DNA from: an uncultured Verrucomicrobiota bacterium
Lineage (GTDB): Bacteria > Verrucomicrobiota > Kiritimatiellia > CAIVKH01
Length of the DNA: 64,000 nucleotides
Assembly: GCA_937873455.1 (NCBI GenBank)
Contig: CALMYG010000043.1
Location: 1-64,000 of the forward strand
Direction: 5' to 3'
Both the position numbers and the translations under genes were made by a program. Every line of letters starts with the position of its first letter. Position 1 is the first letter of the stretch. Below are positions 648-60,655 of this stretch, piece by piece. The notes under the pieces were generated by a model. That model saw only the letters and a program-made list of their open reading frames with translations. It was not told the origin of the DNA and made no database searches.

Positions 648-3600
648 ATGAGGAAATTTATTGTTTCGCATGGTCGCCGCTTCGCGGCGCTGATAACCGT
701 GCTCGGTGTATCCGCGATCACGTTGGCGTTTTCAAACGTCGAAAAAACCGAGAGTGATTCCGTCATCAACCCTGACGAATACGAATTCCTGATGTCGTTC
801 AAGGTCGGCGATATTTACGACCTCGAACAATATTTCGTGCTTCATCAATACGATTATCTTCCCATCACGCCGCCCCCGGCGGATTTCATCCTGCAACAGT
901 CCGGCATGCCCGATGTTCTGCCGTTCGATGGCAAGGCGTTTCCTAAAGAATTTATCGCCGGACTTGTCGGCACGTACGAATACAGCGCATTGGTTTATCC
1001 GCTCGTCGTGATCGAGGAGCCGAAAACACGCGAGATAGTTTTCCTCAATTCCGAGGGCAAGGAAATCTACAGTCTTCCGCCCGCGCCGGGTTACGATCCA
1101 TACGCCTACCTCAAAAGCCGTTGGGCGGCCCTGTATTCAGGCAAAGCCTCTTTGCAAGCCGTGAATTATTGGCAAGGGATTTACGATCCCGCCCGCGTTC
1201 AACTGCGGACCAAGTTGATTCCGATTGAGAATGTGGAGCCGTACCTGTTTGCCCAAGCCAAGGTGATGGAGGCCGCCGCTATGATGCAGGAGGAGGATGA
1301 AGGCGGCGGCATGATGATGCTGATGGAGGGCGAATCCGACAGCAACATTGTGTTTACCGCCATTTATAAAACCAACAGCGTGGCCGTCACCATCGCCTAC
1401 CCGGAGGATTTTACCAACCGATTGGATATTTACACCTGCAATGACCTGCTCGCGGAAATATGGTCGTTTGCCGTCCGCGAATTGCCGACCACGGGAACCA
1501 ATCAAATCACCTGGATCGACACGAATGCATGGATTCAGACCGGCTTGCCGGTACGATTTTACGCAGCGGGAAATGCCGATCTGGATACCGACGGCGACGG
1601 CTACGCCGACGCGCGGGAAATCATGGTTTATAAAACCGATCATGAGGACATCGATTCCCACCCGGTCAAAGTGTCCGGCACGGTCAGTTACTCCGGCATC
1701 GAAACCGGTTCGATCTTTGTCGTATGGGTGACCGACTCGAATAGCTGGTCCATTGCCAAATCGATCACGTTGCCCGGCCCCGCCGCCTATACCAACGAAG
1801 AAGTCGGCAACAATGAAAGCTACTGGATCAAGGCGTTTCGCGATGCAAACGGAAACAACACGCTCGACGCGTGGGAGCCGAGGGGAATTTACAGCGACAA
1901 CTCAACCTTGATCACCGGCGATATTTCCGGGGTCAACATTACGATGGCCGATGTTCCGTCGATATGGGGAACCATCGACTACATTGGAAGCGCGACCGGC
2001 GATATCTATGTCATCGCGGTGACGTCCTCGAACAGTTGGGACATGACCTATAAAACCGTCATTCCGTGGTCGCAGGGTGAAACCAACGACCTGGGCGGCG
2101 GCACGTTCTATGTGTCATTTCCCGTCGAGTACACGATCACCGGACTGCCGTCCTCCAATTATTTCATACGCGCGTTTATCGATTCGGACGCAAACGCCAT
2201 GTTCTCGCTGGGCGAAGCGGCGGGACAATACGCCTCCAATGGAATTCCCGTCAGCAACCGTGTGACGGGAATTGATTTTACCCTCGATCTGGATTCCGAC
2301 GGCGATGAGATGCCGGATTGGTGGGAGTGGCAATATGGGTTTGATCCGTTCGACGATGGCGATATGCGTCTTGATCGCGACAACGACGGGGCGGAAAACT
2401 ACAAGGAATTCCTTTTCGGGACGGACCCCGATAATCCCGATACCGACGGCGACGGCATGCCGGACGGTTGGGAAATTCTCTACGGCCTTGCGCCGCTTGA
2501 TCCCGCCGACGCCTTCGGAGATATCGACAACGATGGCTTGAATAATGTGGACGAATATCTTCGCGGCACGTTTCCCGACAACCCTGACAGCGATGGGGAT
2601 TTTATTTCCGATGGAACCAACACGCTGGGAAGCGGAGCGGCGACCATCTACCGTGGACCCGACCCAAATCCGTTGACGCCCGCGCCCGGCAATCTGGCTC
2701 TTCGCTATGTGTCGAAAGCCGGACGTAGCATCGTGGCGAAGGAAGATCGTTACGGTCGCCCGGTCGTGGCGTGGCAGGCCAACGACGATCAGGGCAAGGC
2801 GCAGGTGTACGTGATGCAGTGGTTCGGCGCACCGATGGATGCCAGCCTTGAAAGCTGGGCTGACCTGTCCGGGCGGTGGGAGCAATTCGGAGGTTCGGCC
2901 ATCAATCGCGGGGTAACGGCGGCCACTAACGGAATCTTCAGCTTCGACATGGCGCTGGACCGCGACGATTCCCCGGTCGTTACCTGGGTGGAACAAAGAA
3001 CTCCGCCCGCCCGCGTATATCTCCTCCGGTGGAGCGCGACCAATTGGGTGCAGAATGGAAATTCGTATTCAAGCGGTATCGCCGATGTGTTGGTGAATTC
3101 GTTTTCGGCAAGCACCAAGCAGCACACGAACACGATCGCTATCAATGGTGTGACCAACGGCACGATCTTCTACGCACGGGTGACGAATTGGTTTGATCGT
3201 GTGGCCGTCGCGGTGAACACGCAGAATCAACCGGTGGTCGTTTCGTTGCGTCCGGCGAATCCGACGGCGGTTCAACTTAGGCGGTTTAACGGGACAAATT
3301 GGGTGGGCATTTCCGGGTCCGCCCAAGATTCAGGAATCACCGGCCTCGGCAGTTATTTCAATCCGCAAATCGAAATCGGTCCCGACAATCGACCGGTCGT
3401 GACGTATTGGGACGCCTGGGCCTATTACTGCCGCAAGTGGGACGGTTCATCTTCGTGGCCGAATCTCGGCAGTAACATCGGCGTGGTGGACAACACCCAC
3501 GGCGCGTACGATCTTTGTTCGTTGTCCGTCAACGAGAGCAACATCGTGCATTTCGGCTGGTTGCAGTATCGCGCCCGGATCATGACCAACAACGTCCTGT

Positions 3601-4496
3601 TGCCGCCGAAGCATGGTTTTTGGGTGCGCCGTTTCGTGGGCGGCTCGTGGGCCAATATCGGCTCTTCCGGCTCCGGCATCGGTTTGCACAAGGACATCAC
3701 CAGCGAAATCGATTCCCGCAGTCTCTCGATTTCCTGCCGGGGTACCGGCGAAACGTTGGCGGTGTGGGCGCAATGGACCGGTGCGTCATCGCCGTTCGTT
3801 TTCGCCCGCCGCGCCCAGGGGACGAACTGGTTTGATCTGGGCGGTTCCTACACGAACAACGGCGTTAATTACGCCGGAGCCAGCGTCAACGCGGTCGCCG
3901 GTTTGACTTCATTGGGTTCGCCGATAGCGATCTATGCAGCCCAATGGAGCGGTTCCAATCACAAGTTACAGGCCCGGCAATTTGTGGCGGACAGCGACGG
4001 CGACGGGTTGAGCGATTTATATGAGCAGGCCATCGGCTTGAATCCAAACTCCAGCGATTCGGATAACGACGGCGTTTCCGACTGGGACGAAATATTTCTT
4101 TATGGTACGGACCCTCTTTCAGATGATTCTGATGGCGATGGGTTGCTCGACGGCGAAGAAGTCAACGGCACGAAATGGGGCATTTGGAGCGATCCGCTCA
4201 ACCCCGACACCGACGGCGACGGGATACTTGACGGCTGTGATCCCTATGTCAATTCACCTCAAGGCGATCAAGACGGCGATGGCTTACCCGATGAACTTGA
4301 TCCGGATATCGACAACGACGGAATTTCCAACGACGATGAATTGATCCTCGGCACGAACCCTTACAATCCTGACACCGATTGCGATGGCGTACCTGATGGC
4401 GAGGACGCAGACCCTCTTGACCCCGATACCCAGGGCGCGGACACCACGCCGCCCGTCATCATCATTATAGAACCCGTGGAAGGAGCTTTGCCATGA
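648..4496 (+). CDS. Secreted TSP3-repeat / beta-propeller-like protein
   Basis: A 1282-residue secreted protein. Residues 1-30 form a signal peptide. A Met-rich acidic stretch (about 205-225) precedes a PVC-type segment ending in AAGNADLDTDGDG (about 300-320). Two beta-sandwich-like repeats follow (about 340-540, each with SNSW and an AFRD/AFID turn). Next come calcium-binding thrombospondin type-3 repeats (about 548-660), a propeller-like region of recurring G-x-PVV-x-W strands (about 680-1110), and a second TSP3 block (about 1115-1265). The start is fixed by AAGGAGG six bases upstream. The protein ends abruptly after a TTPPVI motif, which normally opens an Ig-like domain, and its stop overlaps the Rhs start (ATGA). 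A surface or extracellular partner of the Rhs protein is inferred; no enzymatic domain is seen. Confidence 0.88.
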   Translation: MRKFIVSHGRRFAALITVLGVSAITLAFSNVEKTESDSVINPDEYEFLMSFKVGDIYDLEQYFVLHQYDYLPITPPPADFILQQSGMPDVLPFDGKAFPKEFIAGLVGTYEYSALVYPLVVIEEPKTREIVFLNSEGKEIYSLPPAPGYDPYAYLKSRWAALYSGKASLQAVNYWQGIYDPARVQLRTKLIPIENVEPYLFAQAKVMEAAAMMQEEDEGGGMMMLMEGESDSNIVFTAIYKTNSVAVTIAYPEDFTNRLDIYTCNDLLAEIWSFAVRELPTTGTNQITWIDTNAWIQTGLPVRFYAAGNADLDTDGDGYADAREIMVYKTDHEDIDSHPVKVSGTVSYSGIETGSIFVVWVTDSNSWSIAKSITLPGPAAYTNEEVGNNESYWIKAFRDANGNNTLDAWEPRGIYSDNSTLITGDISGVNITMADVPSIWGTIDYIGSATGDIYVIAVTSSNSWDMTYKTVIPWSQGETNDLGGGTFYVSFPVEYTITGLPSSNYFIRAFIDSDANAMFSLGEAAGQYASNGIPVSNRVTGIDFTLDLDSDGDEMPDWWEWQYGFDPFDDGDMRLDRDNDGAENYKEFLFGTDPDNPDTDGDGMPDGWEILYGLAPLDPADAFGDIDNDGLNNVDEYLRGTFPDNPDSDGDFISDGTNTLGSGAATIYRGPDPNPLTPAPGNLALRYVSKAGRSIVAKEDRYGRPVVAWQANDDQGKAQVYVMQWFGAPMDASLESWADLSGRWEQFGGSAINRGVTAATNGIFSFDMALDRDDSPVVTWVEQRTPPARVYLLRWSATNWVQNGNSYSSGIADVLVNSFSASTKQHTNTIAINGVTNGTIFYARVTNWFDRVAVAVNTQNQPVVVSLRPANPTAVQLRRFNGTNWVGISGSAQDSGITGLGSYFNPQIEIGPDNRPVVTYWDAWAYYCRKWDGSSSWPNLGSNIGVVDNTHGAYDLCSLSVNESNIVHFGWLQYRARIMTNNVLLPPKHGFWVRRFVGGSWANIGSSGSGIGLHKDITSEIDSRSLSISCRGTGETLAVWAQWTGASSPFVFARRAQGTNWFDLGGSYTNNGVNYAGASVNAVAGLTSLGSPIAIYAAQWSGSNHKLQARQFVADSDGDGLSDLYEQAIGLNPNSSDSDNDGVSDWDEIFLYGTDPLSDDSDGDGLLDGEEVNGTKWGIWSDPLNPDTDGDGILDGCDPYVNSPQGDQDGDGLPDELDPDIDNDGISNDDELILGTNPYNPDTDCDGVPDGEDADPLDPDTQGADTTPPVIIIIEPVEGALP

Positions 4497-50020: not shown

Positions 50021-50140
50021 CGCGGGTTCTTACCAGAACGAATCACCGCATAACCTATCGGTCAGGGGAGCGGTGTCAATGCGATCTGGTGCACAGAACG
50101 CTTAATCGTGATTGAGAACAACAGGAATGTGCAGTCATGC

Positions 50141-50160
50141 GCCGGACGCAGAGGTCCGGC
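50141..50160. repeat. Hairpin repeat (GCCGGAC stem)
   Basis: GCCGGAC, a 6-base loop GCAGAG and GTCCGGC, followed by CTACA. An identical 20-base hairpin with the same CTACA lies at 61929-61948. Confidence 0.75.
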
Positions 50161-50246
50161 CTACAAGGTGGCGAAGCGTTGTGGGCCGCGGAGCTACAAG
50201 TGGGCGAAACGTTGTATGCCGACCCTCCGTTTTCATGCCGTTAAAA

Positions 50247-50324
50247 TGGTCGGGGCGACTGGATTTGAACCAGCGACCTCTTGGTCCCGAACCAAGCGCT
50301 CTAGCCAGGCTGAGCCACGCCCCG
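50247..50324 (-). tRNA. tRNA-Pro(CGG)
   Basis: On the minus strand: acceptor CGGGGCG/CGCCCCG, D arm, anticodon stem CTTGG/CCAAG with loop TTCGGGA (anticodon CGG), T arm CTGG-TTCAAAT-CCAG, discriminator A and encoded CCA. Intact. The repeat array immediately upstream of its 5' end is built from its fragments. Confidence 0.95.
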
Positions 50325-50755
50325 AAAAAAATCCTATTTAATTGCACGCGGCGGGCTTTAACACCAGCGACCTTCCCGACACCTTCATGTCGGGACGCTC
50401 TAGCCAGGCTGAGCCACGCCCCGAAAAAAATCCTATTTAATTGCACGCGGCGGGCTTTAACACCAGCGACCTTCCCGACACCTTCGTGTCGGGACGCTCT
50501 AGCCAGGCTGAGCCACGCCCCGAAAAAATTCTTATTCAATTGCACGCGGCGGGCTTTAACACCAGCGACCTTCCCGACACCTTCATGTCGGGACGCTCTA
50601 GCCAGGCTGAGCCACGCCCCGAAAAAAATCCTATTTAATTGCACGCGGCGGGCTTTAACACCAGCGACCTTCCCGACACCTTCGTGTCGGGACGCTCTAG
50701 CCAGGCTTCCACCTTCGCCCTTAGCAGGCTGCGGCGGACAAGGAGCCACGCCCCG
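50325..50755 (-). repeat. Tandem array of four tRNA-Pro-derived 99-bp modules
   Basis: Four units (ends at 50423, 50522, 50621 and 50755) with an exact 99-bp period, continuing in register with the real tRNA-Pro. On the minus strand each unit repeats the tRNA 5' part (CGGGGCGTGGCTCAGCCTGG...GAGCG). The anticodon arm is replaced by a hairpin (TCCCGACA...TGTCGGGA), then AGGTCGCTGG and a degenerate T arm without CCA. The fourth carries a 35-bp insertion (50708-50742). Open frames through the array are fortuitous. Confidence 0.88.
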
Positions 50756-50903
50756 AAAAAATCTTATTTATATACCACTCGGACGCGAATTACCCGCGAA
50801 CAAGTGCATCAAATTGCCAAAACTTTATTCCGGATGCAAGCTTTCATCCGCCGCGATCACAAATAGTTCCATGGTGCGCACGGCGATCCTGTATGGTAAG
50901 CAA

Positions 50904-52112
50904 ATGCGCGTGACCACGATCCTGCATATTGATATGGACGCGTTTTTTGCCGCAGTGGAGGTCTTGGATCATCCCGAATGGGCCGGAAAACCCCTGGTGG
51001 TTGGTTCTCCAGCGGACAAGCGGGGCGTTGTTTGCACGGCCTCCTACGAAGCTCGAAAATTCGGCATCCATTCGGCCATGCCGTCCCGAACCGCCTACCG
51101 ACTCTGTCCGCATGCCATTTTCGCCCCGGTCCGTATGAGCCGCTACCTGGATGTTTCCGAACAGGTGATGGCGATCCTGGGCGACTTCACGCCGATGATC
51201 GAACAGCTTTCGGTCGACGAGGCCTTTCTGGACGTAACCGGCGTGATGCGTTCGTGGGACAGTCCCGCGGCATTGGCGGGCGCGATCAAGGCGCGTATCC
51301 GAAAGGTTACCGGGTTGACCGCCTCCATCGGCATTGCCACCAATAAGTTCCTGGCCAAGCTGGCCAGTGATCTCCATAAACCGGATGGCATGACCCGCGT
51401 ACCCGAAAAACGCGAGGATATTCAAGCCTTTCTCGCTCCGTTGCCGGTGAACAAAATCTGGGGGGTGGGGGAAGTCACGGAAAAACTCCTTCACCAGGCG
51501 GGCTTCCGGTATATGGCTGATATTCAGCAAGTCGGCCCCTCAGTTCTGGTCCCGGTGGTCGGGCCGGCCCTTGCCGATCATATCAGCCGGCTGGCCCGCG
51601 GGGACGATCAACGACCGGTCATCACGGAGTCCGCCGCCAAAAGCATTTCCGCGGAAAATACGTTTGATGAAGATGTCCAGGATCGCGACACCGTCCGGCA
51701 GGAATTGATTCGCCTCGTGGAACAGGTCGGTCGACGATTGCGACAGTCCGACCAGGTGGCGCAAACCGTTCATATCAAGATTCGTTTTGACGATTTCCAA
51801 ACCATCACCCGGCAGGAACAGCTTCCCGATCCGGTCTGTTCGGACCGGCGCCTGATCGCAGCGGCGCTGGCGTTGTTTGAACGGCAGTCCATCGTCCAAC
51901 CCGTTCGCTTGATCGGCATGGGCGTATCTCATTTCCGTGATGCCGGTCAAACCGCCCGCCAACTCGACCTGTTCGCCGATGAAGCGCATGAACGCGAAGC
52001 GCGGGATGCCCGGGTGGATCGCGCCCTGGATCACCTCCGCGAAAAGCTCGGTCCGGACGCCATCCGGCGCGCCGGGTCTTGGGACGGAAAATCCCAGCTC
52101 AACAAGGGGTAG
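50904..52112 (+). CDS. dinB: DNA polymerase IV (Y family)
   Basis: 402 residues from MRVTTILHIDMDAFFAAVE; the frame is open far upstream, but that part is the tRNA-derived array. An ATG at 50871 is a less likely start. Catalytic acidic residues are in HIDMDAFF and in SVDEAFLDVT. SIGIATNKFLAKLASDLHKP and the helix-hairpin-helix NKIWGVGEVTEKLL are present, as is the little-finger domain. It ends with ARQLDLFADE, resembling a beta-clamp-binding peptide (QLDLF). It performs error-prone translesion synthesis; no LexA box is evident upstream. Confidence 0.94.
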   Translation: MRVTTILHIDMDAFFAAVEVLDHPEWAGKPLVVGSPADKRGVVCTASYEARKFGIHSAMPSRTAYRLCPHAIFAPVRMSRYLDVSEQVMAILGDFTPMIEQLSVDEAFLDVTGVMRSWDSPAALAGAIKARIRKVTGLTASIGIATNKFLAKLASDLHKPDGMTRVPEKREDIQAFLAPLPVNKIWGVGEVTEKLLHQAGFRYMADIQQVGPSVLVPVVGPALADHISRLARGDDQRPVITESAAKSISAENTFDEDVQDRDTVRQELIRLVEQVGRRLRQSDQVAQTVHIKIRFDDFQTITRQEQLPDPVCSDRRLIAAALALFERQSIVQPVRLIGMGVSHFRDAGQTARQLDLFADEAHEREARDARVDRALDHLREKLGPDAIRRAGSWDGKSQLNKG

Positions 52113-60015: not shown

Positions 60016-60655
60016 CAGAATCCGTTCGAATCCTTTTGTAGCTGCTTTCGTCAGAAGGCGGCCGTCATGAGAGATGAGACGCGGTCACCGCCCGCACGTG
60101 TGCATCTCTGCGAAGATGACGTCGCAGAGAGAAAGAGAGCACCACCACGTTTATGTTCCCTTCATCATCCACTTCACAAGGAACATGAAGATGACCGTGT
60201 AGCGTGCCAGACCATTCTTTATGCGCCGAAGGCGCATGCGGTACCGCGGGAAGCCGGCTCCCCGCCGACGGATTCCCGCATGGCTCACCGAGGCACAGCC
60301 AGGCCGCTTCACATCATTACAGACCTATTGGCAATGGGTGTCCCATTTCGAAAAACAGGATGTGCACTCGGTAGCTGCTTTCGTCAGAAAGCGGACGTCA
60401 TGGGAAATGAGACGCGGTCGCCGCCCGCGACTACAGCACGGGGCTCTGCTTGCTCGAGCGTCCTCAGTAGCTGCTTTCGTCAGAAAGCGGACGTCATGAG
60501 AGGAGTGACGCGGTCACCGCCCGCGTCTACAGCACGGGGCTCTGCTTACTCAAGCGTCCTCGGTAGCTGCTTTCGTCAGAAAGCGGACGTCATGGGAAAT
60601 GAGACGCGGTCGCCGCCCGCGTCTACAGTACCGGGTTCCGGCCCTGAAGATGGTC
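60016..60655. other. Repeat-rich gap after oppC
   Basis: 640 bp without a gene. Contains one diverged repeat unit (60038-60098), a hairpin CTCTGCGA...TCGCAGAG near 60108-60131, a hairpin ATGCGCC-GAA-GGCGCAT near 60222 followed by GGTACCGCGGGAAGCC (shared with 42.7 kb), and a 96-bp tandem array. Confidence 0.7.
60371..60637. repeat. 96-bp tandem repeat, three units
   Basis: Units begin GTAGCTGCTTTCGTCAGAAA at 60371, 60467 and 60563, an exact 96-bp period; the third is truncated. A diverged single copy lies at 60038. Units differ by a few substitutions. Open frames through it (SCFRQKADVM, GRRPRLQ) are not genes. Confidence 0.85.

Follow-up and report, generated by a model that had tools for sequence, protein, structure and literature searches.

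A hairpin-capped tRNA-Pro array in a Verrucomicrobiota genome as the apparent trace of a hitherto undescribed selfish element aimed at tRNA genes

The closest described system to the locus considered here is SegB, a free-standing GIY-YIG homing endonuclease of T-even phages (PMC13096335, PMC2988022). In the first of these reports, DNA breaks are mapped within tRNA genes, the segB gene is co-located with tRNAs of many isotypes, and the enzyme is reported to drive tandem amplification of tRNA and nuclease by way of microhomology that the tRNA 5' region shares with the 3' end of the nuclease gene (PMC13096335). The family described below is like SegB, as portrayed there, in that its GIY-YIG genes adjoin tRNA genes of many isotypes, but it is chromosomal rather than phage-borne, and no hairpin-capped half tRNAs are reported for SegB in those accounts. 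On this comparison, the present family would be a chromosomal relative of SegB in kind rather than a proven homolog in descent.

Some group I introns also carry GIY-YIG genes. Group I introns occur in the anticodon loops of tRNAs together with homing endonuclease genes (PMC3984707). The scars described here share the anticodon-loop position but differ in that the two halves are separate, lie outside the intact tRNA, and are capped by simple hairpins; instead of an intron core between two exon halves, an intact tRNA stands beside the halves. A further precedent is found in the rtT repeats of Escherichia coli tyrT (Rfam RtT), which are tandem repeats with a tRNA fragment beside a tRNA gene; they differ from the present units in having 3' fragments only, no hairpin swap, and no nuclease. 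An Rfam search of the window, by which is meant the whole 64,000-nucleotide stretch of DNA analyzed here, returned neither a group I intron nor an RtT match. A literature search found no chromosomal tRNA/GIY-YIG element and no hairpin-capped tRNA halves, although papers beyond the searched collection could describe them.

The tRNA-Pro array of the window

An intact tRNA-Pro(CGG) gene occupies positions 50247–50324 on the minus strand (ARAGORN; Rfam RF00005, 64.3 bits), and the stretch adjoining it on its 5' side, 50325–50755 of the same strand, is wholly occupied by four head-to-tail units. The initial annotation had recognized a tRNA-Pro-derived array with a hairpin in place of the anticodon arm, a description borne out by TRF (50297–50707, period 99, 4.2 copies, 97% matches), ARAGORN, and Rfam. 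It had also counted four units of 99 bp each. The number stands, with the proviso that it derives from a 197-contig assembly of read length not given and could be off, but the lengths, read on the minus strand from the tRNA outward, are 99, 99, 99, and 134 bp.

The unit plan is CGGGGCGTGGCTCAGCCTGGCTAGAGCG (tRNA positions 1–26), the hairpin TCCCGACAyGAAGGTGTCGGGA, AGGTCGCTGG, and a tail of ~39 bp; the tRNA 3' half is reduced to the ~10 nt of AGGTCGCTGG, and a 9-bp hairpin replaces the anticodon arm. In unit 1 (50325–50423, delimited by repeat analysis and sequence), these parts correspond, on the minus strand as throughout the array, to a 5' half at 50396–50423, the hairpin at 50374–50395, the b' segment at 50364–50373, and the tail at 50325–50363. 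Unit 2 (50424–50522) has its hairpin at 50473–50494 in the CACG form, unit 3 (50523–50621) at 50572–50593 in the CATG form, and unit 4, the outermost (50622–50755), at 50671–50692 in the CACG form. The T-run at the end of each tail is a partial copy of the tRNA's own 5' flank, the native version of which, GTATATAAATAAGATTTTTT, lies just beyond the array at 50756–50780 on the minus strand, as seen by sequence comparison. The outermost unit owes its extra length to a 35-bp insert in the D loop (TTGTCCGCCGCAGCCTGC..GGGCGAAGGTGGA, 50708–50742, minus strand), and hairpins are present both in this insert and in the D or T loops of dead tRNA copies at two other loci (L353, L026).

From the outermost to the innermost unit, the closing position of the hairpin reads CACG, CATG, CACG, CATG, such that a C–G or U–G pair is always kept. 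The C/T alternation that had been noted is real and preserves pairing, but the duplication of a two-unit block that it was taken to imply is inexact: apart from the insert, unit 4 matches unit 2 throughout, whereas units 1 and 3 disagree at three positions of the tail, at which unit 3 departs from the other units. A simple two-unit block duplication was rejected on this ground.

The neighbors of the array are housekeeping genes, namely dinB, gap, pgk, secG, and Mrp-antiporter genes; dinB, coding for DNA polymerase IV (50904–52112, plus strand; Pfam IMS, IMS_HHH, and IMS_C), lies outside the element. This setting bears on the possibility that the units are attachment-site remnants of tyrosine-integrase islands, given that tRNA 3' fragments beside tRNA genes are the classic scars of such integration (PMC9897764, on the fragments left). 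A scar of that type would be a 3' fragment only, located at the distal end of an integrase-bearing island, whereas here 5' halves lie upstream, hairpins stand at the split, units are shorter than 400 bp, the family's repeated unit includes a GIY-YIG gene, and no island accompanies the housekeeping genes at the window locus, all of which makes an integrase origin highly improbable.

Three other features of the window may be recorded. A 666-aa open frame (50112–52112) spans the tRNA-Pro gene, the array, and dinB; the dinB start more likely lies at 50904, and translations of the tRNA and array may turn up in protein databases. A 96-bp tandem repeat of 2.8 copies, each with a CTTTCGTCAGAAAG palindrome, is located at 60367–60635. 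The contig begins within a tRNA resembling tRNA-Asn(GTT) (1–52), an assembly edge at which no half-copy features were seen.

Half copies and GIY-YIG genes in the same genome

Six tRNA genes of the same genome, Pro-CGG, Pro-GGG, Ala-GGC, Ser-GGA, fMet, and Met, have half copies. Five of these emerged when the tRNA loci of the genome were scanned for half copies with no hairpin assumed: Pro-CGG with four upstream copies, Ala-GGC with one upstream and two downstream, Ser-GGA with two on each side, fMet with one downstream, after which the contig ends, and elongator Met with copies upstream. Pro-GGG, not among the loci given by the scan, came to light through BLAST with the unit as query and has several upstream units divided over two contig ends. 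The initial annotation had proposed looking for the hairpin with AGGTCGCTGG beside other tRNA genes, and the outcome of that search was strongly positive.

The stem TCCCG/CGGGA is common to the Pro, Ala, Ser, and fMet loci, the Met locus has a different GC-rich stem, and the Ser-type insert is a double hairpin; stems seen among loci include TCCCGA, TCCGCC, CCTGCC, and CCGCCTGCC. As short GC-rich palindromes, these hairpins resemble the known CGTC-tagged REPs and double-hairpin elements (PMC3733652), raising the question of whether the hairpin is itself a REP-like mobile palindrome that lands in anticodon arms, with the half copies arising secondarily. Hairpins in the D and T loops of dead copies would suit such an origin, as would the dispersal of TCCCGA palindromes in some Bacteroidota, e.g. 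Pedobacter frigiditerrae (110 vs 2 for the control). The many dispersed intergenic copies typical of REP/RAYT systems are, however, confined to those Bacteroidota; in the window's genome the hairpins are tied to tRNA split points, and GTCCCGA..TCGGGA yields 18 matches against 3 for a reversed-pattern control, nearly all of them in tRNA scars. Other scars have unrelated stems, intact tRNAs are not hit, and both the nuclease gene and the polarity of the scars would be left unexplained, so that a REP-like origin appears rather improbable.

The nuclease gene in question is a small GIY-YIG gene. Nine PF01541 matches were found in the genome: three at Ala, two at Ser, one each at fMet and Met, one inside an ORF as long as UvrC, and one at the end of a contig. 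Seven of the eight small matches are located at the four half-copy loci Ala, Ser, fMet, and Met, where the gene forms part of the repeated stretch. The eighth lies at the end of its contig (L255, G000:C34) with no tRNA in sight. The domain is present in the family but not at the window locus, which has no GIY-YIG gene; the Pro-GGG locus has none either.

All nine proteins tested match PF01541 above the cut-off, and a Tyr, R25, and E61, residues of catalytic type, are invariant across ten aligned proteins. They are single-domain proteins of ~85–130 aa whose best PDB matches are UPF0213 and SLX1 (E ~1e-14 to 1e-8), and only one of ten has a PHROG match, features that set them apart from SegB. 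SLX1 acts in repair together with SLX4 and is not known as a mobile gene linked to tRNAs; UPF0213 has no known function. Downstream of the tRNA, the GIY-YIG reading frame extends directly to the hairpin, and in 10 cases its stop codon is the TAG within the D-stem TAGAGCG.

Polarity and distribution of the scars

Across loci, the common layout is [5' half-hairpin]n, intact tRNA, [GIY-YIG gene, hairpin-3' half]m. In the combined set of the genome itself, its relatives, and the GTDB matches listed, 47 of 52 5' halves lie upstream and 5 downstream of the intact gene, and 48 of 51 3' halves lie downstream and 3 upstream; the choice of reference tRNA accounts artefactually for all three upstream 3' halves and for one of the five downstream 5' halves (L302, L140), and one copy (L121) is a near-full-length tRNA. 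Breakpoints cluster at 26/27 and 43/44, or at 34–36 in Ser and Leu. Most 5' copies cease to match at position 27 and 3' copies begin at 44, such that the anticodon arm (27–43) is exactly swapped, and the hairpin of Ser and Leu scars enters at 34–36 without loss of sequence. The GTDB matches were picked out by the TCCCGA stem and its short tRNA flanks, so that their stem conservation and exact 27/44 breaks are not independent evidence; the polarity in all sets and the breaks in the genome's own and relative sets are.

This arrangement is what would be expected if a tRNA gene had been split at the anticodon arm and a segment bearing an intact tRNA placed between its halves. Upstream and downstream unit numbers are rarely equal (4/0 at the window, 1/6 at L314), and simple nested insertion is therefore not enough. 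At the latter locus, seven tandem GIY-YIG copies stand behind tRNA-Leu(TAA) (1447–3948), the copies being separated and followed by six hairpin-3' half units in all. The near identity and tandem order of the window units, the varying unit numbers, and the lack of a GIY-YIG gene at the window locus would also be compatible with a tRNA pseudogene duplicated neutrally by slippage or unequal crossing-over, no nuclease being involved. Neutral duplication would not be expected, however, to place breaks at 26/27 and 43/44 with a hairpin exactly at the anticodon arm, to set 5' halves upstream and 3' halves downstream, or to do so repeatedly at many isotypes in several phyla; it is best regarded as an unlikely alternative.

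Among class relatives, 60 GIY-YIG regions chosen by Pfam match alone were inspected. A tRNA gene lies within 1.2 kb at 35 of the 60, on the same strand in all 35 and with the GIY-YIG gene just 3' of the tRNA in ~32, against a chance expectation for adjacency of ~2.5% (P ~1e-40). Of the other 25, two adjoin tmRNA and several are found near truncated tRNA 3' ends or contig edges. With regard to the two that adjoin tmRNA (L261, L280), the association may reach beyond tRNA.

A GTDB scan with the hairpin flanked by tRNA consensus as query matched at least 117 stretches, and ~70 of the 80 matches listed are of this type by context, the remainder being chance matches in coding DNA. Those of this type come from Bacteroidota, Marinimicrobia, Ignavibacteria, Acidobacteria (Acidobacteriota), Armatimonadetes, Verrucomicrobia (Verrucomicrobiota), and Patescibacteria, and include the isolates Parapedobacter indicus, Pedobacter frigiditerrae, Barnesiella sp. 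An22, and Flavilitoribacter nigricans. Hairpin tRNA copies together with a GIY-YIG gene are also present on two uncultivated virus contigs (L350, L351), the second of which has a T-loop hairpin in addition.

Closer relatives offer a view of how the scars change. Two sister species, G029 and G132, have in common the gene upstream of tRNA-Ser(TGA), the downstream GIY-YIG gene, and a double-hairpin core, at a locus ~78% identical in DNA. The cores differ in sequence with pairing kept, e.g. GGTCCCGC/GCGGGACC versus GGCCCGC/GCGGGCC, and the hairpin structure thus appears to be maintained. Only in G029 is the intact tRNA separated from the native flank by upstream 5'-half units, which indicates that the upstream array was gained or lost independently. 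The variable arm differs between the species and agrees between inner and outer copies within each; this likeness of inner and outer 3' halves favors duplication in place or gene conversion over a foreign rescue tRNA, for which support was sought in this pair and not found. In a species of the window's own genus (G001), the tRNA-Pro(CGG) locus is not syntenic with the window locus. Downstream of that gene lie a decayed 3' half and a TCCCGA remnant (L028, 1020–1080).

The retained pairing between G029 and G132 could alternatively point to units functioning as a host RNA or DNA device, be it one that acts as a decoy, as a leader governing the maturation of tRNA-Pro, or as bait to absorb the nuclease. 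The window units do fold well: the unit hairpin, 9 bp with a GAAG loop, has z-scores of -4.5 (T variant) and -5.5 (C variant), none of 200 shuffles folds as well, and the whole-unit RNA gives z -3.8. The upstream array is, however, patchily present among close relatives, promoter and terminator scans of the units gave no signal, the 5' flank likewise shows no consensus promoter, and the units have neither a T arm nor a full acceptor. A search with RF00005 gave no match even at E up to 1, so that the units do not score as tRNA, and the RNase P decoy put forward in the initial annotation finds no support. A host device of any kind is accordingly quite doubtful, a shade more so than a REP-like origin.

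A proposed tRNA-parasitic element

The window array is probably the gene-less portion, on the upstream side, of a member of a family of tRNA-parasitic GIY-YIG elements, and the claim for the window itself is limited to that gene-less array. Scars of this type look like traces left by a selfish element, as yet undescribed, that targets tRNAs. The initial annotation's proposals of a tRNA-fragment-derived repeat or a recombination by-product were on the right track; the tie to GIY-YIG genes, the 3'-half copies, and the spread over phyla lay beyond the view of its author. GIY-YIG genes are associated with tRNA genes, and the adjoining tRNA would be the target of each gene, which may move by homing.

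A complete element would comprise upstream 5' halves ending in hairpins, an intact tRNA, a GIY-YIG gene reading out of the tRNA, and downstream 3' halves led by hairpins. The enzyme, related to the structure-specific UPF0213 and SLX1 proteins, would cut the DNA of the tRNA gene at the anticodon arm, and the break would be repaired by copying the tRNA-bearing segment between the broken halves, so that the original 5' and 3' halves would be left on the outside as scars, flanking a single intact copy that sustains the cell. The hairpin stands exactly at the split point of both scars, replacing or interrupting the anticodon arm, and would thereby ensure that the scars are neither tRNAs nor good targets. 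Identical units might then expand or contract by unequal recombination. At the window locus four 5'-half units are left, on which nucleases encoded elsewhere in the genome, at Ala, Ser, fMet, and Met, might act in trans. Points against this scheme are the lack of a GIY-YIG gene at the window locus, the unequal unit numbers, the likeness of inner and outer 3' halves within G029 and within G132, the variation of hairpin sequences among loci, and the dispersal of TCCCGA in some Bacteroidota.

More tentatively, and with less confidence than the assignment of the array to the family, it may be speculated that these are natural cleave-and-rescue elements of bacterial chromosomes, in which a very small nuclease breaks an essential tRNA gene at the anticodon, the sole intact copy is provided by the element, and hairpin-capped halves are the end marks, in several phyla and at nearly all isotypes plus tmRNA. 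Cutting, biased inheritance, and the function of the hairpin are inferred. The findings tie the widely annotated but unexplained small GIY-YIG proteins to tRNA genes and account for odd tRNA fragments on which annotation tools stumble. The family would offer a chromosomal parallel to the amplification by SegB that was reported for phage in 2026, and a testable case of a selfish nuclease that may be aimed at essential RNA genes while sparing its host.
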